Shown here: piece after piece, positions 1-14,309 of the stretch | How the letters are laid out: each line of letters begins with the position of its first letter | Position numbering within the stretch: position 1 is the stretch's first letter | NCBI RefSeq assembly: GCF_021864505.1 | Contig: NZ_JAKJIB010000013.1 | Span: 1 to 33,295 of the forward strand | Source of the DNA: Falsiroseomonas oryziterrae | GTDB taxonomy: Bacteria; Pseudomonadota; Alphaproteobacteria; Acetobacterales; Acetobacteraceae | Direction of reading: 5' to 3' | DNA: 33,295 nt | Translations under genes and position numbers: made by a program | The notes under the pieces: model-generated | What the model saw: only the letters and a program-made list of their open reading frames with translations | The model's database searches: none | What the model was told of the DNA's origin: nothing

Positions 1-1168
1 CGCCGAGCGCCTGCTCGCGCAGCCGCTCGGCGTCGCGCGCGCGGATCTCGTCGGCCGAGGGCGGCGCGCCCCATTCGGCGGCGATGCGCGCCGTGGCCAG
101 CAGCCGCTCGGCGATGCGCCGCCGGTTCGCGGGGACCAGGAGTATGGACTGCCCCTTGCGGCCGGCGCGTCCCGTGCGGCCGGAGCGGTGCAGCAGCGTC
201 TCCCGGTCGCGCGGCAACTCGGCATGCACGACGAGGCCGAGGTCGGGCAGGTCGATGCCGCGTGCGGCGACGTCGGTCGCGACGCAGACCCGTGCGCGGC
301 CGTCGCGCAGCGACTGGAGCGCCCGGTTCCGCTCCGCCTGGGTGAGCTCGCCGGACAGCGCCACTGCCTCGAAGCCGCGTTCCGTCAGGTTGCCGTGCAG
401 CCGGGCGACGGCGGCGCGCGTCGCGCAGAAGACGATGGCGCGCGCGTCGTGCCAGCGCAGCAGGTTGACCAGCGCGCGCTCCTCCTCGCGCGGGGCGATG
501 ACGATAGCGCTGTATGTGATGTCGCGATGCGCGCCCTCGCCGGTCGCGGCGATGCGCAGCGCGTCGCGCTGGTAGCGCTTCGCCAGCGCCGCGATCTCCT
601 TCGGGATGGTCGCGGAGAACAGCAGCGTGCGCCGCGTCTCCGGCGTCACGTCGAGGATCGCTTCCAGCTCGTCCCGGAAGCCCATGTCGAGCATCTCGTC
701 GGCCTCGTCGAGCACCACGGCGCGCAAGGCGGCGAGGTCGAGGGCGCCGCGCTCCAGATGGTCGCGCAGCCGCCCCGGCGTGCCGACCACGATATGCGCG
801 CCCATGTCGAGCTGGCGCCGCTCGGCGCGCATGTCGGTGCCGCCGACGCAGGCGATCACGCGGGCGCCCGCGCCGGCATAGAGCCAGCCGAGTTCCTCGC
901 GCACCTGCAGCGCCAGCTCGCGCGTCGGCGCGATGGCGAGCGCGAGCGGCGTGCGCGCGGGGCCGAGCCGCGCGGCCTCGCCCAGCACCTCCGGCGCGAA
1001 GGCCAGGCCGAAGGCGACGGTCTTGCCGGAGCCGGTCTGGGCGGAGACGAGCAGGTCGCGGCCTGCGGTCTCGGGCGCCAGCACCGCCTCCTGCACCGGC
1101 GTCGGCTCGGCATAGCCGCGGGCGGCGAGCGCCTCGGCGAGCGGGGCGGGGAGGGTGGGGAAGGGCAT
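1..1168 (-). CDS. DEAD-box ATP-dependent RNA helicase (C-terminus cut by window edge)
   Basis: My translation of the minus strand from the ATG at 1168 gives an open frame of 389 codons that runs off the left edge. Seen: Q-motif Gln26, Walker A AQTGSGKT (43-50), PTREL (81-85), GTPGR (129-133), DEAD (154-157), SAT (185-187), and the second RecA domain with ATDVAARGID and HRSGRTGR. These are the ordered motifs of DEAD-box helicases, which unwind short RNA duplexes in ribosome assembly or mRNA turnover. The N-terminus starts directly at the Q-motif region, as in DeaD/RhlE/DbpA types. Any C-terminal RNA-binding domain lies outside the window, so the subfamily cannot be fixed. The start ATG shares one base with the stop of the upstream dehydrogenase, so translation is probably coupled. 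Confidence 0.93.
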   Translation of the reverse strand, partial: MPFPTLPAPLAEALAARGYAEPTPVQEAVLAPETAGRDLLVSAQTGSGKTVAFGLAFAPEVLGEAARLGPARTPLALAIAPTRELALQVREELGWLYAGAGARVIACVGGTDMRAERRQLDMGAHIVVGTPGRLRDHLERGALDLAALRAVVLDEADEMLDMGFRDELEAILDVTPETRRTLLFSATIPKEIAALAKRYQRDALRIAATGEGAHRDITYSAIVIAPREEERALVNLLRWHDARAIVFCATRAAVARLHGNLTERGFEAVALSGELTQAERNRALQSLRDGRARVCVATDVAARGIDLPDLGLVVHAELPRDRETLLHRSGRTGRAGRKGQSILLVPANRRRIAERLLATARIAAEWGAPPSADEIRARDAERLREQALG

Positions 1169-2802
1169 CAGTTCACCCGGCCGAGCAGGCCACGCGCGAT
1201 GATATGCGCCTGGATCTCCGCGGCACCTTCGAAGATGGAGAGGACCCGCGCATCGCAGAGCACGCGGCTGATCGGGTATTCCAGCGCATAGCCGTTGCCG
1301 CCATGCACCTGCAGCGCGGCGTCGGCATTGGCCCAGGCGACGCGCGCTGCGAGCAGCTTGGCCATGCCCGCCTCCACGTCGCAGCGCCGTCCGGCATCCT
1401 TCTCGCGCGCGGCGAAGTAGGTCAGCTGCCGGGCCAGCATCGTCTCGACGGCCATCATCACCAGCTTGTTCGACACGCGCGGGAAGCCGAGGATCGGCTT
1501 GCCGAACTGGATGCGGGTCTTCGCGTAGGACAAGCCGAGCGTCAGCGCGTTCTGCGCGACGCCGAGCGCGCGCGCCGCGGTCTGGATGCGCGCAGACTCG
1601 AAGGTCTCCATCAGCTGCCGGAAGCCCTGGCCCTCGACGCCGCCGAGCAGGCAGTCGGCCGGCACCTCGAAGCCCTCGAAGGCGATCTCGTATTCGCGCA
1701 TGCCGCGATAGCCGAGGACGTGGATCTCGGAGCCCGACATGCCTGGCGCGGGGAACGGATCGTCGTCGGTGCCGCGCGGCTTGGGCGCGATCAGCATGGA
1801 CAGGCCACGATGGCCGGGCGCGTCGCCGGTGCGGACCAGCAGCGTCATGACGTCGCTGCGGCTGCCATGGGTGATCCAGGTCTTTGCGCCATGGACGCGA
1901 TAGACGTCGCCTTCGCGCACGGCGCGGGTGCGCAGGTTCGCCAGGTCGCTGCCGGTGTTGGGCTCCGTGAAGACGGCGGTCGGCAGGATCTCGCCGCTGG
2001 CGATGCCGGGCAGCCAGCGCGCCTTCTGCGCCTCCGTGCCGTTCAGCGCGATCAGTTCGCCGGCAATCTCGCTCCGGGTGCCGAGCGAGCCGACGCCGAC
2101 ATAGCCTTCCGACAGCATCTCCGACACCAGGCACATCGCGACCTTGCCGAGGCCCAGGCCACCGTGCGCCTCCGGGATCGTGACACCGAAGGTGCCGAGC
2201 TCGCCGAGCTTGGCGATCAGGTCGAGCGGGATGAGCGCGTTGGCGTCGTGCCAACCTTGCGCATGCGGCGTCACCTCGGCTGCGGTGAAGCGGCCGAACT
2301 GATCGCGCAGCAGCGCCATGTCAGGATCCGTCACGCCGACATCGCCGAAGCTCTCGGCCTGCAGCGCGGCATGCATGGCGACGCGTGCCTCGGCCAGCCG
2401 CGCGGGCTCCGCGAAGGGCGCGAAGGCCGCGCGCAGCGTCGCCTCGGCGGCCGGCGGCACGCCGAGATCGGCGGGGCGCGCCATCTCCACCTGGCTCATC
2501 GGGATGCCGCCCGCGAGCTGCGCGCCGTATTCGGCGAAGCCGAGGACGAGGATCGCGCGCTCGGTCGCACCAAGCCGCCCGGCGGCGTCGAGCCGCTCGC
2601 CCCAGCGCGCCGCCTGGCGCAGCGCCTCGACATAGGTGGCGGCCCAGGCGAGGCCATGCGCGCCGAGTTGCGCGGCTTCCAGCGCCGCCACGTCGAGCTT
2701 CCCGTCGCGCGACACCTCGCGCGACAGCGCGGCGCGCGCGGCATCCAGCATCGCTTCCGCGCCGGCCAGCGCCGCGCGGCATTCCCTCAGCAACTCGGTC
2801 AT
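1168..2802 (-). CDS. mcd: acyl-CoA dehydrogenase with N-terminal extension, probable (2S)-methylsuccinyl-CoA dehydrogenase
   Basis: A 544-residue flavoprotein. An alpha-helical extension of about 150 residues precedes a complete acyl-CoA dehydrogenase fold. Seen: the FTEPNTGSD flavin/substrate motif, the KTWITHGS segment, RIQFGKPI, and near the end LQVHGGNGY followed by SIFEGAAEIQ, whose Glu525 sits where the catalytic base of this family lies. Known: Mcd of the ethylmalonyl-CoA pathway, which oxidises (2S)-methylsuccinyl-CoA to mesaconyl-C1-CoA, has this long N-terminal extension, whereas ordinary acyl-CoA dehydrogenases are about 380-400 residues. The upstream gene looks like the enzyme that uses the Mcd product, which strengthens the call. 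The frame is open well upstream, but that part reads through the transferase gene. I chose the ATG at 2802, which overlaps the upstream stop by one base. Another long-form dehydrogenase remains possible. Confidence 0.78.
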   Translation of the reverse strand: MTELLRECRAALAGAEAMLDAARAALSREVSRDGKLDVAALEAAQLGAHGLAWAATYVEALRQAARWGERLDAAGRLGATERAILVLGFAEYGAQLAGGIPMSQVEMARPADLGVPPAAEATLRAAFAPFAEPARLAEARVAMHAALQAESFGDVGVTDPDMALLRDQFGRFTAAEVTPHAQGWHDANALIPLDLIAKLGELGTFGVTIPEAHGGLGLGKVAMCLVSEMLSEGYVGVGSLGTRSEIAGELIALNGTEAQKARWLPGIASGEILPTAVFTEPNTGSDLANLRTRAVREGDVYRVHGAKTWITHGSRSDVMTLLVRTGDAPGHRGLSMLIAPKPRGTDDDPFPAPGMSGSEIHVLGYRGMREYEIAFEGFEVPADCLLGGVEGQGFRQLMETFESARIQTAARALGVAQNALTLGLSYAKTRIQFGKPILGFPRVSNKLVMMAVETMLARQLTYFAAREKDAGRRCDVEAGMAKLLAARVAWANADAALQVHGGNGYALEYPISRVLCDARVLSIFEGAAEIQAHIIARGLLGRVN

Positions 2803-4001
2803 CACGAATCCCGTGGCAGAAGTCCCGCCGCGCGATAGGCGGCGATGGTGTCGTGCGGCAAGCCGAGCCTCTCGCGCAGCACGGCGTCCGTGTCGGCGCC
2901 GAGGCGTGGCGCGGGCCGCGGCGGCAGCGCCGGCTGCAGCGGCGAGGCGGGCGCGAGCAGGCGTCCCGCGCCGGGCTGCTCGATCTCGGCGAACATCGGA
3001 TTGGCGGCGGAGCAGCGGGGATCCTCGCGGACCATCTGGCCGAAATCCTGGTAGGGGCCCCACAGCACGCCGCTCGCCTCGAAGGCGGCACGCACCTCCG
3101 GCAGGCTGCGCGCGGCGAACCAGGGCGCAAGCACGGCGCAGATCGCGTCGCGCGCAGCGTAGCGCCCGCCTTCGTCGCTCATGTCCACGCCCATCAGCGG
3201 CCCGATCATCTCGAGCTTCTCGGCGAGCCCCGTCGCCTTGCCAATCGCCCGCCACTGCCGGTTGGAGATCGCGGCGAGCATCACGCGCCGCCCGTCCTTG
3301 CATGAGAAGTCGCGCCCGAAGGCGCCGTACAGATGGTTGCCTAGCGGCGGGCGGACATGCCCGTTCACCTGCACATCGGCCAGGTAGCCGAGCGTTGCGA
3401 CCGTCGCGTAGGCGACGTCGGAGAGCGCGAGCGTCACCTCGCCGCCGCGCCCTGTCCGCGTGCGGCGTCGTTCCGCGGCGAGAAGGCCGGTCGCGAGGTA
3501 GAGCCCGGCGGCGACGTCCCAGGCCGGCAGCACATGGTTCACCGGACGCTCGTCCTCGCCGGTCGCGACGGGAAAGCCGACGGCGGCATTCACCGTGTAG
3601 TCGATGGCGTTGCCGCCATCATGCGTGCCGGTCAGCCGCAGCATGATGAGGTCCGGGCGGCGGGCGGAGAGCGCGGCGTAGGACATCCAGCCCTCGGCGG
3701 AGGGCAGGTTGGTGAGCAGGATCCCGGCCTCGGCGATCAGCGCGGCGGCGATCTCGCGCCCTTCGGGCTTGTCGAGAGCGAGGCAGACCGAGCGCTTCCC
3801 CTTGTTCAGCCCGGCCCAGTAGAGGCTCGTGCCGGACGGGGCGAGCGGCCATCGGCCGATATCGATGTTGCCGCCGATCGGGTCGATGCGGATCACCTCG
3901 GCGCCGAGCTGGGCGAGGGTCATGCCGCCGATCGGGGCCGCGACGAAGGCGGAGACCTCGACGAGCCGAAGGCCGGCGAGCGGGGCGTCCTCTGGTGACA
4001 T
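2802..4001 (-). CDS. mct: CaiB/BaiF (class III) CoA-transferase, probable 2-methylfumaryl-CoA isomerase (mesaconyl-CoA C1-C4 CoA transferase)
   Basis: A 399-residue class III CoA-transferase. Seen: SAFVAAPIGGMTLAQLGAEV (17-36), the WAGLNKGKRS segment (62-71), NHVLPAWD with Asp162 in the place of the family's catalytic aspartate, and YGAFGRDF. From memory, these segments match the Mct branch (3-hydroxypropionate bicycle of Chloroflexus) much better than formyl-CoA or carnitine CoA-transferases. Known: Mct moves CoA within mesaconyl-CoA from C1 to C4, producing 3-methylfumaryl-CoA. Its substrate is the product of Mcd, encoded by the next gene with a one-base overlap. The start at 4001 gives the typical N-terminus. 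The longer open frame upstream has no family similarity and would cross the divergent gene's promoter region. The first 90 bases upstream are shared with the divergent aminotransferase gene. Confidence 0.78.
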   Translation of the reverse strand: MSPEDAPLAGLRLVEVSAFVAAPIGGMTLAQLGAEVIRIDPIGGNIDIGRWPLAPSGTSLYWAGLNKGKRSVCLALDKPEGREIAAALIAEAGILLTNLPSAEGWMSYAALSARRPDLIMLRLTGTHDGGNAIDYTVNAAVGFPVATGEDERPVNHVLPAWDVAAGLYLATGLLAAERRRTRTGRGGEVTLALSDVAYATVATLGYLADVQVNGHVRPPLGNHLYGAFGRDFSCKDGRRVMLAAISNRQWRAIGKATGLAEKLEMIGPLMGVDMSDEGGRYAARDAICAVLAPWFAARSLPEVRAAFEASGVLWGPYQDFGQMVREDPRCSAANPMFAEIEQPGAGRLLAPASPLQPALPPRPAPRLGADTDAVLRERLGLPHDTIAAYRAAGLLPRDS

Positions 4002-4091: not shown

Positions 4092-5411
4092 ATGCGCGGA
4101 CGGAATGCGACGGTCGAGGATGCCTTGGACGAGGCCCGCGACCTCTATGTGCGCCGCCGGCCCGAGAGCCTGGCGCGGCACCGCGCGGCCGCCGAGGTCA
4201 TGCCCGGCGGCAACACGCGCAGCGTGCTGTTCCACGGGCCCTTCCCCTTCACCGCGCTGCGTGGCGAGGGCTGCCGCATTTTCGACGCGGACGGCCATGC
4301 CTATGTGAACATGGCGGGCGAATACACCGCCGGGCTGTTCGGCCATTCGCATCCGGCCATCCGGGCGGCCGTGATGCGCGCGCTGGATGGCGGCGTGAAC
4401 CTCACGGCGCACAACGCGCTGGAGGCGGAGTTCGCGCGGCTCATCTGCACGCGCTTCCCATCCATCGAGCTTGTGCGCTTCACCAATTCCGGCACCGAGG
4501 CGAACCTGCTCGCGCTTGCCTGCGCGACCATCGCGACGGGGCGCGGGACGATCCTGGCCTTCGAGGGCGGGTATCACGGCAGCGTCCTAACCTTCCCGCC
4601 GGGCGCGCGGCCGGCGGTGAACGTGCCGCATCGCGTCGTGCTCGCGCCCTACAACGACCTGGCCGCGGCGCAGCGCGTCGCGCGCGGCGTGGCGGGCGAG
4701 CTTGCCGCGATCATCCTCGAGCCGATGCTGGGCAGCGGCGGCTGCGTGCCGGCGGAACAGGGTTTCCTCGAGGGGCTGCGGGCACTGGCGGACGAGACCG
4801 GCGCCGTACTGATCTTCGACGAGGTGATGACGAGCCGCCTTGCGCCGGGCGGGCTGCAGGAGGCGAGCGGCGTGCTGCCGGATCTCACGACGCTCGGGAA
4901 ATATGTCGGCGGCGGGATGTCCTTCGGCGCCTTCGGCGGGCGCGCCGGGCTGATGGCGATGTTCGATCCGCGCCGCTCCGATGCCGTGCTGCATGCGGGC
5001 ACCTTCAACAACAACACGCTCACCATGGCGGCCGGCATCGCGGCGCTCGGCGAGATCTACACGCCCGAGGTCGCGGTCGCGCACAATGCGCGCGGCGATG
5101 CGCTGCGTGAGGCGCTGAACGGCATCGCGGCGCGGCACGCCGTGCCGATCGTCGCCACGGGGCGGGGGAGCATGATGACGCTGCATGTGCTGCCGGCGGC
5201 GCCGCGCGATGCGGCGCAGGCGGCTGCGGGCCATGCGGGGCTGAAGGAGCTGCTGTTCCTCGACCTGCTGGAGCGCGGCTACTACATGGCGCGGCGCGGC
5301 ATGGTCGCGTTGTCGCTCGTGCTCGGCGAGGAGGAACTCGAGGGGTTCCGCGACGCGGTGGACGAGGTGGTCGCGCTGCGCGCCCCGCTGCTGCGGGGCG
5401 CCTTCGGCTGA
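4092..5411 (+). CDS. class III PLP-dependent aminotransferase, glutamate-1-semialdehyde aminotransferase-like
   Basis: 439 residues. Seen: the N-terminal MPGGNTRS segment typical of the HemL branch, NSGTEAN (132-138), YHG (161-163, ring stacking), IFDEV with Asp243 for the pyridine nitrogen, and LGKYVGGG with Lys270 as the Schiff-base lysine. These are complete catalytic features of class III aminotransferases/aminomutases. HemL itself is possible, but catabolic paralogues annotated as 'aspartate aminotransferase family' share these motifs and are common beside CoA and transporter genes. Nothing here points to tetrapyrrole synthesis. A GGAGG-like site lies about seven bases before the ATG. 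The gene is divergent from mct (90 bases between starts) and converges on the cytochrome c gene. The amino donor and acceptor cannot be read from sequence. Confidence 0.9.
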   Translation: MRGRNATVEDALDEARDLYVRRRPESLARHRAAAEVMPGGNTRSVLFHGPFPFTALRGEGCRIFDADGHAYVNMAGEYTAGLFGHSHPAIRAAVMRALDGGVNLTAHNALEAEFARLICTRFPSIELVRFTNSGTEANLLALACATIATGRGTILAFEGGYHGSVLTFPPGARPAVNVPHRVVLAPYNDLAAAQRVARGVAGELAAIILEPMLGSGGCVPAEQGFLEGLRALADETGAVLIFDEVMTSRLAPGGLQEASGVLPDLTTLGKYVGGGMSFGAFGGRAGLMAMFDPRRSDAVLHAGTFNNNTLTMAAGIAALGEIYTPEVAVAHNARGDALREALNGIAARHAVPIVATGRGSMMTLHVLPAAPRDAAQAAAGHAGLKELLFLDLLERGYYMARRGMVALSLVLGEEELEGFRDAVDEVVALRAPLLRGAFG

Positions 5412-5894: not shown

Positions 5895-6878
5895 CTATTC
5901 CAGCCGGATGCCCAGTTCACGGATGATCGGCGTCCAGCGCTCCCGCGCCGCCGTGATGAAGGCGCCGAAGGCCTCCGGCGTGCCGCCCACCACATCGGCG
6001 GCCTGCACGCGGGCCAGGTTCTCCCGCAGTTCCGGCACCGCCAGCACCTGGTTGAAGACGGCGTTGGCGCGGGCGAGCAGGTCGGGCGTAATGCCGGCCG
6101 GCGCCACCACGCCGGTCCAGACCGCGACGTCGAAGCCGGGCACCGTCTCGGCGATGGCGGGCACCTCGGGCAGGGTTGCGACGCGACGCGCGGTGCTGAC
6201 CGCGATCGGCCGCGCGCGTCCGTCCTGCAGGAAGGGCAGGGCGGAGGAGATCGAGGTGAAGGAGAGGTCGACGTCGCCGCGCACCAGCGCCGTCGCCGCC
6301 TCTGCGCCGCTGCGGTACGGCACATGCGTCATGCGCGTGTTCGTCAGGCGCTGGAAGTGCTCCATCATGAACTGCACGGCATTGCCGGCGCCGGGCGTGG
6401 AATAGGTGAGGCGGCCGGGCTCGGCGCGCGCCGCGGCGATCACCGCGGGCACGTCGCGGGCCGCGAAGCCGGGGCGCGCGACCAGCACGGTCGGGATGTT
6501 CACCGCGTGGACCACGGGCACGAAGGCCGTGCGCGGGTCGTAGGGCAGGGCCGCGAACATCTCGTGCCCGACGACGTTCGGCGCGAGATCGGCCAGCATG
6601 AAGGTGGAGCCGTCCGGCCGTTCCCGTGCGGCGAGCGCGCCGGCGATGGTGCCGCCGGCGCCGGGGCGGTTGTCAACCTGCAGGGCCTGGCCGTTGGCGA
6701 AGCGCGGGAAGTGCGTGGCCATGGCGCGCGCCACCACGTCGAAGGCCCCGCCGGGGGCGAAGGGGACGATCATGCGCACCGGCCGGTCCGGCCAGGCGGC
6801 CTGCGCGCGGGCGATGGCGGGCGCGGCCAGCATCAGGCCGAATCCCGCCAGGGCCCGGCGGGGCAGCATCGTGGTCAT
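5895..6878 (-). CDS. Bug/TctC family tripartite tricarboxylate transporter receptor
   Basis: 327 residues. A signal peptide (PRRALAG then a hydrophobic run, ending near ARA at 23-25) precedes the family's opening WPDRPVRMIVPFAPGG. QVDNRPGAGG, the mid-protein YSTPGAGN and HVPYRSG segments and the C-terminal WTPIIRELGI segment complete the Bug fold. Known: Bug proteins are periplasmic binding proteins for carboxylates and related small molecules. They are often encoded as orphans far from TctA/TctB membrane subunits, as here. The ligand is unknown. The gene is divergent from livG of transporter 1 with 123 bases between starts. A purine-rich GGGAGA lies before the ATG at 6878. A twin-arginine-like RR occurs in the signal, but Sec export is equally likely. 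Confidence 0.92.
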   Translation of the reverse strand: MTTMLPRRALAGFGLMLAAPAIARAQAAWPDRPVRMIVPFAPGGAFDVVARAMATHFPRFANGQALQVDNRPGAGGTIAGALAARERPDGSTFMLADLAPNVVGHEMFAALPYDPRTAFVPVVHAVNIPTVLVARPGFAARDVPAVIAAARAEPGRLTYSTPGAGNAVQFMMEHFQRLTNTRMTHVPYRSGAEAATALVRGDVDLSFTSISSALPFLQDGRARPIAVSTARRVATLPEVPAIAETVPGFDVAVWTGVVAPAGITPDLLARANAVFNQVLAVPELRENLARVQAADVVGGTPEAFGAFITAARERWTPIIRELGIRLE

Positions 6879-9727: not shown

Positions 9728-10596
9728 TCCAGGATTGGAGGGACCTCGCCCAGGTCCTGCTGAACGGCCTGATGACGGGCAGCGTGCTGATGCTGCCCGC
9801 CATCGGTTTCAACGTCATCTTCGCCGTCCTGCGCTACCCCAACTTCGCCGTCGCGGGCTACGCGACGATCGGCGCCTTCGCCGGCTGGATCGCCAACACG
9901 CAATGGGGCCTGCCGGCGGGCACTGCGCTGCTCGCGGCCTTCCTTGCGGCCGGCGCCGCGGGGCTGCTGTGCGAGGAGGCGGCGCTCAAGCCGCTTCGAC
10001 CCTCGGGCGCGCTGACCGTCGCCATCGCCTCCGTCGCGCTGACCATCCTGCTGGAGAACATCGTGCGGTTCTTCTTCGGGAACTCGCTGCGCGGCTACGA
10101 CCTGCCGGTGCTGCGCGACTGGCGCTTCGACGGGATCCGGGTGAACCCGCAGCAGCTCGCGAATACCGGCTACGCGATCGCGGCCGCGTCGGCGCTCTTC
10201 GCGCTGCTCGCCTTCACGCGGCTGGGGCGGGCGATGCGCGCGGTGGCCGACAACCCGCAGCTGGCCGACATCAAGGGCGTGGACCCGGACCGCATCGCGC
10301 GCGTCGCGGTCTTCGTCGGCGCCGGGCTCGCCGGCTTCGGCGGCATGCTGATCGGGCTCGACACCTCGATCGACCCGCTGACAGGCTTCCGGGTCGTGCT
10401 TTCCGTCTTCGCGGCGGCGGTCGTGGGCGGGCTCGGATCGATCCCTGGCGCGGCGCTCGGCGCGATGGTGGTCGGCGTGGGCGAGGAGATGGCGAGCGTG
10501 CTGCTTGAGCCGGCCTACCGCACCGTCACCGCGTTCCTCGCCATCCTGCTCGTGCTGACGCTGCGGCCGGAAGGCCTCCTGGGGCGGCGTACGTGA
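9724..10596 (+). CDS. livH: HAAT ABC transporter permease, LivH type, TTG start (transporter 1)
   Basis: 290 residues with about eight hydrophobic segments, e.g. LMTGSVLMLPAIGFNVIFAV and the C-terminal VVGGLGSIPGAALGAMVVG, the conserved inner-membrane loop of the family (contacts the ATPases). The best start is TTG at 9724, which shares TG with the TGA stop of the binding-protein gene (TTGA overlap). GGAG lies about five bases upstream. Internal ATGs (for example near 9771) would remove the first membrane segment. The start therefore implies translational coupling to the binding protein. It forms the membrane channel with LivM, encoded 13 bases downstream. Confidence 0.93.
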   Translation: MIQDWRDLAQVLLNGLMTGSVLMLPAIGFNVIFAVLRYPNFAVAGYATIGAFAGWIANTQWGLPAGTALLAAFLAAGAAGLLCEEAALKPLRPSGALTVAIASVALTILLENIVRFFFGNSLRGYDLPVLRDWRFDGIRVNPQQLANTGYAIAAASALFALLAFTRLGRAMRAVADNPQLADIKGVDPDRIARVAVFVGAGLAGFGGMLIGLDTSIDPLTGFRVVLSVFAAAVVGGLGSIPGAALGAMVVGVGEEMASVLLEPAYRTVTAFLAILLVLTLRPEGLLGRRT

Positions 10597-10609
10597 GGGG
10601 GGGCGCCTG

Positions 10610-11512
10610 ATGGAGAGCTACCTCGTCGCCATGCTGGTCTTTGCGGGGCTATATGCCCTGATGGCGCTCGGCCTCAACGTGATCTGGGGCCTGGCGGGCA
10701 TGGTCAATCTCGGCCTCGTCGGCTTCTTCGCGGTCGGTGCCTATGCCTCGGCGCTGCTGACGACGAAGCAGTTCTGGCCGATGCCGCTCGGTTGGGCCGC
10801 GGGGGCGGCGGTCGCCGCGGCGGCCGGGGCGGTGATGGCGGTCATCGTCGCGCGGCTGCGCGGCGACTACCTCGCCATCGTCACCCTCGGCTTCGCCGAG
10901 GTGATCCGCCTGGTCGCCTCGAACGAGATCTGGCTGACCAACGGCACCGACGGCATCAGCGGCATCCCTGGGCCCTGGCGCGGCGCGGTGACGCCGCAGC
11001 AGTTCAACCTGATCTTCCTCGGCATCGTGTGGGCGGCCGTCGCGCTCGCCTTCCTGCTCTGCGCGCGCGTCTCCCATTCGCCCTTCGGGCGCGTGCTGCG
11101 TGCGGTGCGCGAGGACCAGGATGTCGCGGCCGTCGCCGGCAAGCCGGTGCTGTGGTTCAAGGTCCGCGCCTTCTGCCTCGGCGCCGCGGTGGTCGGCTTC
11201 GCGGGCGCGCTCTACGCGCACTACAACGCCTATATCGCGCCCGACGGCTTCGCGCCGCTGCTGACGATCTACATCGTCCTCGCGCTGACCGCGGGCGGCG
11301 TCGGCGCGATGCGCGGCGCGATCATCGGCGCGCTGGTCGTCGTGCTGCTGCTGGAAGGCACGCGCTTCCTCGCCCAGGCGATCCCGGGCGTGACCCCGGT
11401 GCAGAAGGCGGCGCTGCGCGAGTCCATCATCGCCCTCTCGCTCATCCTGCTGCTGCGATTCCGCCCGCAGGGCCTCATCCCCGAACGTACCCGAACCAAG
11501 GCAAGACCATGA
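10610..11512 (+). CDS. livM: HAAT ABC transporter permease, LivM type (transporter 1)
   Basis: 300 residues, multi-spanning. Seen: the LivM-type opening ALMALGLNVIWGLAGMVNLG, RLRGDYLAIVTLGFAEVIR, the NGTDGISGIPG loop after it, and RVLRAVREDQDVAA, the coupling region that meets the ATPase. TAGGVGAMRGAIIGALVVV is the C-terminal conserved loop. Known: it pairs with LivH to form the pore. The last bases form ATGA with the start of the following GAF-domain gene, so that protein is made coupled to LivM. Confidence 0.94.
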   Translation: MESYLVAMLVFAGLYALMALGLNVIWGLAGMVNLGLVGFFAVGAYASALLTTKQFWPMPLGWAAGAAVAAAAGAVMAVIVARLRGDYLAIVTLGFAEVIRLVASNEIWLTNGTDGISGIPGPWRGAVTPQQFNLIFLGIVWAAVALAFLLCARVSHSPFGRVLRAVREDQDVAAVAGKPVLWFKVRAFCLGAAVVGFAGALYAHYNAYIAPDGFAPLLTIYIVLALTAGGVGAMRGAIIGALVVVLLLEGTRFLAQAIPGVTPVQKAALRESIIALSLILLLRFRPQGLIPERTRTKARP

Positions 11513-12009
11513 GCCGACAGGATCCCGCGCCACACTACGCCGCCGTCGCCGCCGCCGCGCGCGAGGGCGGACAGCCCGACGCCCTCTTCGCAGCGCTCGA
11601 CGCGGCGATGGGCCGCGCGATCGGGCACCGGCTCTTTACCATCCTCGTCGTGCATCCGGGCGCGCAGGAGAGCCAGCGCTACTATTCCAACATGCCGAAG
11701 GAATACCCGGTCGGCGGGCGCAAGCCGATCAACCAGACGCACTGGTTCCAGCGCGTGCTCGGCGCCGGCGAGCCCTATATCGGGCGCAGCTACGAGGACA
11801 TCCGCGATGTCTTCTTCGACCATGAGCTGATCCGCAGCCTCGGCTGCGAGAGCGTGCTGAACGTGCCGGTGCGCTGGAACGGCACCAGCCTCGGCACCAT
11901 CAACCTGCTGCACCACGCGAACTGGTACAACGAGGCCGACATCGCCCCGGCGCAGGTCTTTGCGGCGCTCGCCGCGCCCGGGCTGATGCAGGTGGTCGCG
12001 GGGGGTTAG
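11509..12009 (+). CDS. small single-domain GAF protein coupled to livM
   Basis: 166 residues, soluble, with no signal peptide. After an Ala-rich helix the protein has a GAF-like pattern: LFTILVVHPGAQESQRYYSN, GGRKPINQTHWFQRVLGAGEPYIG, then SVLNVPVRWNGTSLGTINLLH, the typical central GAF strands, and a final helix with PAQVFAALAAPGL. GAF domains bind small molecules or serve as sensors. No output domain is attached. Start ATG at 11509 overlaps the livM stop (ATGA), so its level follows transporter production. It may sense the imported substrate or act on the following metalloenzyme pathway. That role is inferred. An 83-base gap containing a possible promoter follows. Confidence 0.85.
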   Translation: MSRQDPAPHYAAVAAAAREGGQPDALFAALDAAMGRAIGHRLFTILVVHPGAQESQRYYSNMPKEYPVGGRKPINQTHWFQRVLGAGEPYIGRSYEDIRDVFFDHELIRSLGCESVLNVPVRWNGTSLGTINLLHHANWYNEADIAPAQVFAALAAPGLMQVVAGG

Positions 12010-12023
12010 CGCCCCCATCGCGC

Positions 12024-12051
12024 TGGACAGCTGCGCGCATGCCGAAATACT
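12024..12051 (+). promoter_or_regulatory. possible sigma-70-like promoter before the NicX-like gene
   Basis: TGGACA (12024-12029), 16 bases, AATACT (12046-12051), giving 5/6 and 4/6 matches to the -35 and -10 consensus, in a locally AT-richer gap. The start codon follows at 12093 behind GGAGGAA. It would let the last two genes of the region be expressed apart from the transporter. Confidence 0.35.
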
Positions 12052-12092
12052 TAGGTCTGTAAGGAATTCAAGAAGCCAGGCGGAGGAACCCC

Positions 12093-13280
12093 ATGTCGCG
12101 CTTCCCGACGCGCCTCGAGGACATCCTGGACGCGCCCACGCGGCGCGGCCTGCCGCTGCCGGTCAAGCATCCGCCGGCCGACATCGGCGCCTATATGCGC
12201 GGCGTCGACAATTTCTGCCGCGTGATGGCGATCCGCCCCGGCGACCATGTGGTGATGCTGACGGACCCGCTGCTCGACCCTCGCGTGATCCAGGCGGTCC
12301 AGGGGCTTGCGCGTGGGCGCGGCGCCACCTTCGCCAGCTACATGGGCGAAAGCACGCGCTATGTGACCGTGCCGGAGGAGGCGAAGGCGCTGCTCTCCCG
12401 CGCGACCTTCGTGGTCTCCACCTGGTTCGCCTCGGTGCTCGATCCCTACTGCATTGGGCTGCGGCGGAACCAGGGGCAGCGCTGGGTGAAGATCACCTTC
12501 TTCCGCGACCTCGACCTGCTGCACACGCCGCAGGCGCAGTTCCCGGTGGACCTGCTGGGCGAGATCATCCGCGCGACGGGTCGGCTGTTCCCGGAACAGG
12601 GCGACTTCACGCTGCGGCTGTCCGACCCGCGCGGTACCGACCTGCGCATCCCCTACACCGACGCGATGCTGCAGCACCTGCGCCGGCACAATCGCTGGCG
12701 CGGCCACAACGTCGCGGACGAGCCCGGCTGCTACGTGCACTACCTGCCGACGCATGGGCCCAACCTGTTCGAATACTCGATGGTCGGACTGAAGCCGGAG
12801 GACAAGGTCGGCATCCAGGGGACGGTCTGGGCGAACTGGGCCGTCGGCTTCGACAAGCCCTTCGAGAGCCCGGTCGGCGTCGAGTTCCGCGACGACGTGG
12901 TGCACGCCGTGCATGGCGAGGGCTTCGCGGCCGAGGTGCTGCGCGACTACCTGATCGGCGGCACGCTCGAGGAGCTCGGCTGCGGCCACAATCCGAAGGC
13001 GCCGCGCTTCGACATCTATCCGGCCGGCCCGAATTCGCCCGGCAGCCTCCATGTCGGCATCAACGCGCCGAAGCCGTCGGACTACCTCCGCCGCGTCATG
13101 CCGAACTGGGAGGAGCCGCACATCCACATGGACCTGGTGCTGTACGACGCGACGGTGACGGCCGGGAACCGGCCGCTGGTGGAGGATGGCTACCTGCTTT
13201 CGCTGCGAGACCCGCAGGTCCGGGCGATGGCGGAGACCTATGGCGACCCGGTGGATCTGCTGGAGTCCTGGCCGGTCTGA
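12093..13280 (+). CDS. NicX/M29-aminopeptidase-like metalloenzyme, possible 2,5-dihydroxypyridine 5,6-dioxygenase relative
   Basis: 395 residues, cytoplasmic. The opening half has the PGDHVVMLTDPLLDPRVIQA pattern of the M29-type fold, and the C-terminal half carries EELGCGHNPKA (His299) and HIHMDLVLYDATV (343-355), followed by NRPLVEDG. Known: NicX, the Fe(II) dioxygenase of aerobic nicotinate breakdown, belongs to this fold and has an H-x-D pair near its C-terminus; His345-x-Asp347 fits that pair. The remaining NicX metal ligand is not certain here; His299, His271 and His274 are candidates. An M29-like aminopeptidase is the alternative. It follows an amino-acid-type transporter and precedes a carboxylate receptor gene, which fits breakdown of an imported nitrogen-containing or aromatic acid. 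A clear GGAGGAA site precedes the start. Confidence 0.65.
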   Translation: MSRFPTRLEDILDAPTRRGLPLPVKHPPADIGAYMRGVDNFCRVMAIRPGDHVVMLTDPLLDPRVIQAVQGLARGRGATFASYMGESTRYVTVPEEAKALLSRATFVVSTWFASVLDPYCIGLRRNQGQRWVKITFFRDLDLLHTPQAQFPVDLLGEIIRATGRLFPEQGDFTLRLSDPRGTDLRIPYTDAMLQHLRRHNRWRGHNVADEPGCYVHYLPTHGPNLFEYSMVGLKPEDKVGIQGTVWANWAVGFDKPFESPVGVEFRDDVVHAVHGEGFAAEVLRDYLIGGTLEELGCGHNPKAPRFDIYPAGPNSPGSLHVGINAPKPSDYLRRVMPNWEEPHIHMDLVLYDATVTAGNRPLVEDGYLLSLRDPQVRAMAETYGDPVDLLESWPV

Positions 13281-13325: not shown

Positions 13326-14309
13326 ATGCAGACGGAACGCGGGATGCGGCTCACGCGCCGCGGGCTTATGGCGGCCGGCCTTCTGGCGGCGGGCGGCGCC
13401 CGCGCGCAGGCCTGGCCGGACCGGCCGATCCGGCTGATCGTGCCCTTCCTGGCGGGCGGCGGCGGCGACACGCTGGCGCGGCTCGCGATCGGGCCCGCGC
13501 AGGCGCGGCTCGGACAGACCTTCGTGGTGGACAACCGCCCCGGCGCCGGCGGCAATGTGGGCGCCGAGGCGGCGGCGCGCGCGACGCCCGACGGCTACAC
13601 GCTGTTCTACGGCACCAACGGCACGCATGCGATCAACGAGGCGCTCTATCCGCGCCTCGGCTTCCGCCCGCATGAGGATTTCATCCCAGTCGCTCCGCTG
13701 TCGCGCATCGTCCTCGTGGTGCTGGCGAAGCGCGACCTGCCGGTGGAGACGCTGCCGCAGTTGATCGCCTGGCTGAAGGCCAATCCGGGCCGCGCCACCT
13801 ACGGCTCCGCCGGGAACGGCACCACCGGGCATATCGCGGCGGAGATGTTCCGCGTCGCGGCGGGCGTGGACATCGTCCACGTGCCCTATCGCGGCAACGC
13901 GGCGGCGATGACCGACTTGGCCGCGGGCCGGATCGACCTGGCGATCGAGCTGATCCCGGCCGCCTTCGCCGCCATGCAGAACGCGGCGGTGCGCACGCTC
14001 GCCGTGACCTCGGGCGCGCCGCTGCCGACGCATCCGAACCTGCCGACGGTCGCTTCCGTGCTGCCGGGCTTCGAGGTCAGCGCCTGGGACGGCATCTTCG
14101 CCCCCGCCGGCACGCCGGCGCCGATCGTTGCCCGACTCAGCGAGGCCTTCACCGAAGGGCTGCGTGACGAGGCAGTGGTCGCCGCGCTGCGGACGCGCGG
14201 CGCGGAACCCTCGCCGCCGATGACGCCGGCCGCCTTCGCGGCCTTCATCGCCTCCGAGCGCACGCGCTGGGGCGACGCGGTGCGGGCCTCCGGCGCACGG
14301 CTCGACTGA
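13326..14309 (+). CDS. Bug/TctC family periplasmic receptor
   Basis: 327 residues. Twin-arginine-like LTRRGLMAAGLLAAGG signal with cleavage near ARA-QA, then the family opening WPDRPIRLIVPFLAGG and VDNRPGAGG. YGSAGNGTTGHIAAEMF and HVPYRGN are the usual ligand-region segments. It is 45 bases after the NicX-like gene with GGGAGGGAA before the ATG, so the two are probably co-transcribed. No TctA/TctB genes lie nearby. Like the Bug gene at 5895-6878 it is an orphan receptor. The two have the same length and similar motifs but differ widely in sequence, so recent duplication is unlikely. The ligand is unknown; a carboxylate related to the neighbouring enzyme's pathway is a guess. Confidence 0.93.
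   Translation: MQTERGMRLTRRGLMAAGLLAAGGARAQAWPDRPIRLIVPFLAGGGGDTLARLAIGPAQARLGQTFVVDNRPGAGGNVGAEAAARATPDGYTLFYGTNGTHAINEALYPRLGFRPHEDFIPVAPLSRIVLVVLAKRDLPVETLPQLIAWLKANPGRATYGSAGNGTTGHIAAEMFRVAAGVDIVHVPYRGNAAAMTDLAAGRIDLAIELIPAAFAAMQNAAVRTLAVTSGAPLPTHPNLPTVASVLPGFEVSAWDGIFAPAGTPAPIVARLSEAFTEGLRDEAVVAALRTRGAEPSPPMTPAAFAAFIASERTRWGDAVRASGARLD

Follow-up and report, generated by a model that had tools for sequence, protein, structure and literature searches.

A conserved mct-mcd gene pair found without its usual pathway points to an undescribed breakdown route

In genome annotation, (2S)-methylsuccinyl-coenzyme A (CoA) dehydrogenase (Mcd) is commonly taken to indicate the ethylmalonyl-CoA pathway and mesaconyl-CoA C1-C4 transferase (Mct) the 3-hydroxypropionate bicycle, and annotators may therefore infer pathways that are absent. 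Here we analyse an mct-like gene and an mcd gene that overlap in a 33,295-nucleotide stretch of DNA from Falsiroseomonas oryziterrae (contig NZ_JAKJIB010000013.1 of assembly GCF_021864505.1); this whole stretch is hereafter called the window. The draft assembly, in which it is contig 35, measures 4.63 Mb in 735 contigs and is 97.7% complete, and the nearest relatives of the organism are Roseomonas-like Acetobacteraceae. The two genes stay together in related genomes in which ccr, the crotonyl-CoA carboxylase/reductase gene of the ethylmalonyl-CoA pathway, was not found above cut-off, and a pair without its usual pathway points to an undescribed breakdown route. We consider it likely that the pair forms a stand-alone catabolic module that takes methylsuccinyl-C1-CoA through mesaconyl-C1-CoA to mesaconyl-C4-CoA and so feeds the cleavage of citramalyl-CoA.

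Both enzymes have well-described counterparts. For Mcd, the available text of PMC5798300 describes an N-terminal extension, three arginines, a methyl pocket formed by Ala285 and Phe287, the catalytic Glu535 and a high specificity for (2S)-methylsuccinyl-CoA. For Mct, Asp165, Arg47, Tyr136 and Leu43 are tied to catalysis or substrate binding in the accessible parts of PMC9813914 and PMC9196870, and the former connects Arg47, Tyr136 and Leu/Ile43 with substrate binding and with the sealing of the active site in intramolecular transferases. Mct is also present in symbionts that have a partial bicycle, according to the part of PMC6593406 available to us, which is a different setting from the one considered here. 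Among the literature matches listed, which cover titles and abstract openings and leave subscription papers mostly outside their scope, there was no description of Mcd operating with Mct outside the ethylmalonyl-CoA pathway.

The window carries both genes on the minus strand. The mct-like gene (2802..4001) encodes a 399-residue family III CoA transferase (P0002) that is predicted to be a mesaconyl-CoA C1-C4 transferase, and mcd (1168..2802) encodes a predicted (2S)-methylsuccinyl-C1-CoA dehydrogenase (P0001), a flavin adenine dinucleotide (FAD)-type acyl-CoA dehydrogenase with an N-terminal extension and 544 residues when counted from its ATG. Both frames display a coding-type distribution of GC over codon positions. 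At their junction the minus strand reads TGATG (2800..2804), the stop codon of mct and the start codon of mcd having base 2802 in common, an arrangement that makes translational coupling of the two genes likely; an alternative GTG start at 2805, one codon upstream, would lengthen P0001 to 545 residues. An earlier note on this DNA had located the two genes and their one-base overlap, had listed the transferase motifs SAFVAAPIGGMTLAQLG and WAGLNKGKRS together with Asp162, and had judged the proteins Mct-like and Mcd-like; all of these observations were borne out, the last two by the comparisons that follow.

The best family of P0002 is TIGR04253 (2-methylfumaryl-CoA isomerase, i.e. Mct) with 441 bits, the next-best model scoring 96.4 bits, and among proteins of solved structure the Mct enzymes of Roseiflexus and Chloroflexus (PDB 7xkg/8apq) lead with 438 and 424 bits, the third reaching 95. 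Identity to the Chloroflexus chain (8apq) is 53%, and D162, R50, Y135 and I46 of P0002 occupy the positions of its D165, R47, Y136 and L43; Arg47, Tyr136 and Asp165 are invariant in 108 of 108 Mct rows, eight of which are duplicates of the same loci. Since P0002 falls under the TIGR04253 cut-off, we term it Mct-like and treat it as a member of a sister branch, not as an equivalog.

This score, together with a changed CoA clamp, in which R75, F101, R104 and R314 of the solved Mct are replaced by D77, L99, E103 and G311 in P0002, leaves room for an enzyme that acts between molecules. With mesaconyl-CoA or succinyl-CoA as the CoA donor, such an enzyme would activate imported methylsuccinate or mesaconate, and Mcd would then oxidise methylsuccinyl-CoA, so that the pair would oxidise methylsuccinate to mesaconate instead of performing a C1-C4 shift. 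The uptake genes near the pair in several relatives, of the tripartite ATP-independent periplasmic (TRAP) and tripartite tricarboxylate transporter (TTT) types, would be fitting company for such a unit. We regard this as unlikely: P0002 retains the Arg47, Tyr136 and Leu/Ile43 positions that the available text of PMC9813914 ties to the sealed site, and the succinyl-CoA:mesaconate transferase model gives it 84 bits, far below its Mct score. R75, R104 and R314 are also variable in eight Mcts encoded beside bicycle-type HpcH/HpaI lyase genes, which retain F101.

A tree of 115 Mct rows, built by a quick method with support from the Shimodaira-Hasegawa-like approximate likelihood ratio test (SH-aLRT), separates every Mct from six CaiB outgroup rows (SH-aLRT 99; three pairs, two identical). 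Within it, a branch of 60 rows (SH-aLRT 98) holds most Mcd-linked Mcts including P0002 and stands apart from the Chloroflexus enzyme, while four Mcts with an Mcd nearby (L203, L220, L222 and L239) fall in other branches. Membership of the 3-hydroxypropionate bicycle was considered for P0002 and rejected, as the solved Mct and all eight lyase-side Mcts lie outside its branch and no PF01642 mutase was found in the genomes searched.

Residues 9-541 of P0001 align to Mcd of Paracoccus (PDB 6es9) with 650 bits and 60.4% identity, the second solved relative being 8ciw, also named methylsuccinyl-CoA dehydrogenase, with 264 bits. P0001 has the N-terminal extension of Mcd (about 170 residues), its dehydrogenase core beginning at residue 164, and its R244, R367, R412, A277, F279 and E526 match R252, R376, R421, A285, F287 and E535 of Mcd. 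Over 17 compared positions there are two changes (Ser283 to Pro and Lys379 to Arg), although at position 279, where the available text of PMC5798300 names Glu, Gly was counted in both rows and the comparison is not as intended. By sequence P0001 is thus a C1-type dehydrogenase and not the C4-type methylsuccinyl-CoA dehydrogenase of the itaconate/methylsuccinate cluster. In a tree of Mcd proteins, whose outgroup is not clean in that two of its rows are duplicated second-type Mcds, the Paracoccus enzyme groups with three ccr-side Mcds (SH-aLRT 83), and the Mct-side Mcds, together with those of L203 and L220, form another group (SH-aLRT 88).

We then asked how the pair relates to the ethylmalonyl-CoA pathway, to which the earlier note had linked it, naming the absence of ccr among the results that would speak against this link. 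Searches with TIGR01751 (cut-off 378.55), in which a Caulobacter positive control exceeded the cut-off each time, gave a best score of 133 bits in the window's own draft genome and nothing above cut-off in any of 26 Mct-bearing relatives or in any of 299 genomes sampled from the order, for each of which the top six candidates were scored. The B12-dependent acyl-CoA mutase of this type (methylmalonyl/ethylmalonyl-CoA mutase, PF01642) was likewise not found in 19 of 19 genomes searched, the window's own included. As for Mch, the two-domain mesaconyl-C1-CoA hydratase of the pathway, the sole PF19315 match in the window's own genome is a 172-residue protein matching positions 20-167 of 353, whose best NCBI model is RipB/Ich (240 bits, cut-off 340). 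By contrast, ccr was present in 3 of 29 further genomes, most of them outside the order and not all with the pair, namely two Bosea and one Enterovirga; all three carry an Mcd gene within 5 kb of ccr, which in both Bosea genomes is additional to the Mcd linked to Mct. An ethylmalonyl-CoA pathway at work in the window organism, with the pair as a branch off it, would account for an Mcd-type dehydrogenase and an Mct-like transferase standing in one window, but against these counts, and with ccr-bearing Bosea keeping a separate Mcd near ccr, it is highly improbable, and that part of the earlier note is not upheld. A module that stands apart from the ethylmalonyl-CoA pathway is the better reading of the pair.

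In the order sample the two genes are retained together. Counting Mct at E <=1e-60 and Mcd at E <=1e-130, we found Mcd in 24 of the 299 genomes and Mct in 27, with Mct present in all 24 Mcd genomes; the genes are neighbours in 23 of these and on different contigs in the remaining one (G298). The three further Mct genomes comprise one with Mct at a contig end (G198), one in which a 40% Mcd relative adjoins (G246) and one in which a MaoC protein and a CitE-type lyase adjoin (G282). Viewed by locus, an Mcd lies in the 1.5-kb flank of 23 of the 24 order loci with 66-100% Mct identity, and the other, L010, stops at a contig edge. No operon conserved beyond mct-mcd was found in the order, where the neighbours vary.

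To these 27 order loci and the window we added the best 80 of at least 555 relatives and removed eight duplicates, which left 100 loci. A gene was counted if its midpoint was no more than 7.5 kb from Mct, or 2.5 kb in the case of the MaoC type described below. Mcd is near Mct in 45 of them, a second Mcd type in two, an E1 component of the 2-oxoglutarate dehydrogenase (OGDH) type in 14 (always with Mcd) and a bicycle-type HpcH/HpaI lyase in eight, with none of the genes sought in 22; the bicycle-type labels derive from similarity to family-matched genes of locus L223, the name malyl-CoA lyase having been assigned by eye. All 46 close pairs (gap below 500 bases, either Mcd type, duplicates counted) are co-oriented, 42 as mct-mcd and four as mcd-mct, and the Mcd flanking all but one of the order loci shows that the pairing is not a chance one, as the earlier note had suggested. 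A spacing of -1 occurred only in the window and in the genus mate G189 (L050/L162, same contig), as measured between tblastn match ends with starts mapped in the window alone, and the one-base overlap may thus occur in other close pairs too. The strongest hint of a functional pairing is that two Mcd lineages have joined Mct: the second (P0006), with 685 bits to PDB 8ciw, named (2S)-methylsuccinyl-CoA dehydrogenase, adjoins it in G246, Bradyrhizobium tropiciagri, Paraburkholderia D15, Variovorax SRS16 and plasmid pAKD34.

Some of these loci are of separate interest. On the conjugative IncP plasmid pAKD34 (L266, JN106175.1) the second-type Mcd and Mct lie between two ISPps1 transposase genes (10293-13203), with a dihydroxy-acid dehydratase gene near the pair, a setting from which the Mcd-Mct module may move between bacteria. 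In an alphaproteobacterial metagenome-assembled genome (L196, 7989-11641) the Mct gene leads straight into one for a xanthine-dehydrogenase-type molybdopterin-binding subunit. Nineteen of the 100 loci, 13 of them from Actinomycetota, combine Mct with a MaoC protein of about 330 residues and have no Mcd nearby (e.g. L206, L208-L210, L212-L215, L219, L230 and L237); the one example scanned gave a MaoC match and a weak MC_hydratase match, and this combination is another uncharacterised setting for Mct.

We next considered the reactions that such a module would perform. In the catabolic reading that we favour, Mcd would oxidise (2S)-methylsuccinyl-C1-CoA to mesaconyl-C1-CoA and pass the electrons to electron-transferring flavoprotein (ETF), after which Mct would carry out an intramolecular shift of CoA that yields mesaconyl-C4-CoA. 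Two enzymes encoded elsewhere in the window's own genome, a RipB/Ich-like hydratase and a CitE-type lyase, would then form citramalyl-CoA and split it into acetyl-CoA and pyruvate. RipB/Ich is a hydratase of the itaconate route, and the available text of PMC12290011 indicates that itaconyl-CoA hydratase doubles as a mesaconyl-C4-CoA hydratase. The hydratase candidate, a 172-residue MaoC protein on contig C5, has RipB/Ich as its best NCBI model over the full length with 240 bits (cut-off 340), versus 95 bits for the 2-methylfumaryl-CoA hydratase model, and the RipB/Ich scores in two genus mates are 238 and 232 bits. The lyase gene is split by the assembly across two contig ends (L078 at the start of G000:C124 and L079 at the start of G000:C701), its larger piece scoring 155.7 bits against the RipC/Ccl citramalyl-CoA lyase cut-off of 375; two other HpcH genes are located on C235 and C303. 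Directly upstream of the split gene, inspection by eye revealed a frame resembling a TTT receptor.

Neighbourhoods in relatives bring these downstream functions close to the pair. In Azospirillum canadense and A. rugosum a lyase lies about 6 kb from the pair, that of A. canadense exceeding the RipC/Ccl cut-off (390.6 vs 375), and the genes in between encode a hydratase-like protein, a CaiB transferase and another acyl-CoA dehydrogenase. MarineAlpha12 has the gene order Mct, hydratase-like protein and Mcd. The Paraburkholderia D15 locus encodes Mcd and Mct along with ETF, a MaoC protein, a CoA ester lyase and a CoA transferase, and in G282 the genes for a lyase, a MaoC protein and Mct adjoin one another. 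The "Meh-like" label of the roughly 280-residue hydratase genes was given by eye, and of five that were tested only the A. canadense protein matched a Pfam model (PF13452) and none an NCBIfam model. PF13452 itself was rejected as a hydratase marker, its matches in 27 of 27 genomes making it too unspecific to assign, and the NF038242 lyase model gave matches in all 27, none of them over its cut-off. The mesaconyl-C4-CoA/citramalyl-CoA route proposed in the earlier note gains support from relatives and from the organism's own hydratase and lyase candidates, but is not supported as a branch off the ethylmalonyl-CoA pathway. A plasmid of Paraburkholderia sp. 22B1P (L269, 4514-9239) carries a run of genes for a CoA transferase, a MaoC protein, a lyase, a RipB/Ich-like MaoC protein and Mct, with no Mcd, and is possibly an itaconate or mesaconate cluster that uses Mct.

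Several observations weigh against the catabolic module. The clamp residues of P0002 are altered and its score is under the Mct cut-off (441 vs 725), and 11 of the 60 rows in the mainly Mcd-linked branch have no nearby Mcd above 50% identity (L049, L175, L181, L182, L190, L192-L194, L196, L202 and L207), two of these rows (L049 and L181) coming from the ends of contigs and several others from short contigs. The organism's own hydratase and lyase both lie away from the pair and under their NCBI cut-offs, support for the split between Mct-linked and ethylmalonyl-pathway Mcds is only moderate, and the ccr survey of the order rests on six candidates per genome.

A further question is where methylsuccinyl-C1-CoA would come from. 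Because neither ccr nor a B12 acyl-CoA mutase was found in the nearly complete draft, the ethylmalonyl-CoA pathway is an unlikely source, and catabolism of some branched compound would be a more likely one. Candidate feeders differ among relatives and would include oxidative decarboxylation of a methyl-2-oxoglutarate by an OGDH-type E1, beta-oxidation with thiolysis, or a CoA transferase. The 14 distinct loci with an E1 near the pair belong to Azospirillum, Bosea, Bradyrhizobium, Belnapia and two other genera of the family, and four E1 copies that were tested all exceeded the OGDH E1 cut-off. When compared with the enzymes of E. coli and M. smegmatis, the linked E1 proteins retain His298 in 15 of 15 rows and His260 in 13 of 15, yet at E. 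coli position 302 (Ser; Thr in M. smegmatis) all 15 rows have Glu, Asp, Arg or Ala; we take these three sites to be those that bind the 2-oxo acid. The stretch in A. brasilense Sp7 additionally encodes an FAD oxidoreductase, an aldehyde dehydrogenase, a ketopantoate-reductase-like protein, TRAP uptake, a LysR regulator and short-chain dehydrogenase/reductase (SDR) proteins. The best match of its aldehyde dehydrogenase is 2,5-dioxovalerate dehydrogenase (464 bits, cut-off 750). The aldehyde dehydrogenase of Bosea scores best against the same models, with 477 and 476 bits, and Bosea also encodes a GlcD-like flavoenzyme (259 bits, cut-off 568).

Oxidative decarboxylation of 3-methyl-2-oxoglutarate would yield methylsuccinyl-C1-CoA, the thioester used by Mcd. 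We tentatively suggest, as a possibility that we hold less probable than the module itself, that the two enzymes form the centre of an as yet undescribed route for breaking down a methyl-branched C6 compound. Along this route a 2-hydroxy acid would be oxidised by the GlcD-like flavoenzyme, the aldehyde end by the relative of 2-oxoglutarate-semialdehyde dehydrogenase to give 3-methyl-2-oxoglutarate, and the dedicated E1 would convert the latter into methylsuccinyl-C1-CoA, which Mcd, Mct, the hydratase and citramalyl-CoA lyase would take via mesaconyl-C1-CoA and mesaconyl-C4-CoA to acetyl-CoA and pyruvate. Azospirillum and Bosea have candidate genes for the upstream steps grouped together; the window organism has just the core clustered, with no E1 beside the pair. 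Our literature search found no paper on 3-methyl-2-oxoglutarate under six of its names.

A different feed is suggested by plasmid 3 of Variovorax sp. SRS16 (L268, 1-14462), where the pair ends a run of genes for a ring-hydroxylating dioxygenase, enoyl-CoA hydratases and thiolase-type proteins, suggesting breakdown of an aromatic or alicyclic compound that ends in methylsuccinyl-CoA. In line with this beta-oxidation cluster, we propose that thiolysis of 4-methyl-3-oxoadipyl-CoA could supply methylsuccinyl-C1-CoA. The position of this related pair at the end of such a cluster would also suit enzymes whose substrate is a different alpha-branched dicarboxylyl-CoA, such as one that is longer or derived from a ring, and there is a precedent in ThnP and ThnO of naphthalene breakdown, a CoA-transferase and dehydrogenase pair (available text of PMC11659651). 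We think a different substrate improbable for the window's pair, more so than intermolecular transfer, given that P0001 keeps the methyl pocket (A277, F279) and the three arginines at 60% identity to an enzyme of high specificity for (2S)-methylsuccinyl-CoA (PMC5798300, as available) and that ThnP is a family I enzyme, not one of family III.

The other genes near the pair in the window were left out of the module. Divergent from mct lies a gene for a class III aminotransferase like glutamate-1-semialdehyde aminomutase (4092-5411, plus strand; 264 bits to hemL, cut-off 527), and this aminotransferase cluster is near mct in two genus mates as well (G189 and G006), a DEAD-helicase cluster being present in four. 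Two TTT-type solute-receptor-like genes, at 5895-6878 (minus strand) and about 13413-14306 (plus strand), are 37% and 35% identical to the pair-side receptor of L066. Several loci have TTT receptors close to the pair; genes of this kind are numerous in these bacteria. A search of viral contigs returned one pattern match and no relative.

These results bear on how marker genes are used: in the order sample, none of the 24 genomes that carry Mcd has a ccr above cut-off. The E1-linked clusters predict a definite metabolite, 3-methyl-2-oxoglutarate, and the Mcd-Mct pair would lend itself to use in synthetic CoA chemistry. In C. necator the methylsuccinyl-C1-CoA thioester is a would-be dead end, according to the available text of PMC12290011, and together Mcd and Mct would open it to the citramalyl-CoA route.

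Set beside the known systems, the pair resembles each in part. With Mcd of the ethylmalonyl-CoA pathway (6es9) P0001 shares overall sequence, N-terminal extension, arginines, methyl pocket and catalytic Glu, but in the order sample its type is confined to genomes that have no ccr above cut-off, all of which have Mct, and it forms a separate tree branch. P0002 likewise shares with Mct of the 3-hydroxypropionate bicycle its catalytic Asp, the Arg47, Tyr136 and Leu/Ile43 positions and a place in the same tree, and differs in its CoA clamp, in its score against TIGR04253 and in belonging to a branch linked mostly to Mcd, not to an HpcH/HpaI lyase and a MaoC hydratase. In two Azospirillum, a cluster similar in look to the itaconate/methylsuccinate cluster known from Pseudomonas and Cupriavidus lies about 2-6 kb from the pair; as the available text of PMC12290011 describes it, that cluster oxidises the C4 thioester directly and requires no Mct, unlike the Mcd-Mct pair. 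Finally, ThnP and ThnO of anaerobic naphthalene degradation, in the portion of PMC11659651 available to us, likewise couple an intramolecular CoA transferase to an acyl-CoA dehydrogenase, but with a family I transferase, a larger ring substrate and a transfer that precedes the oxidation.

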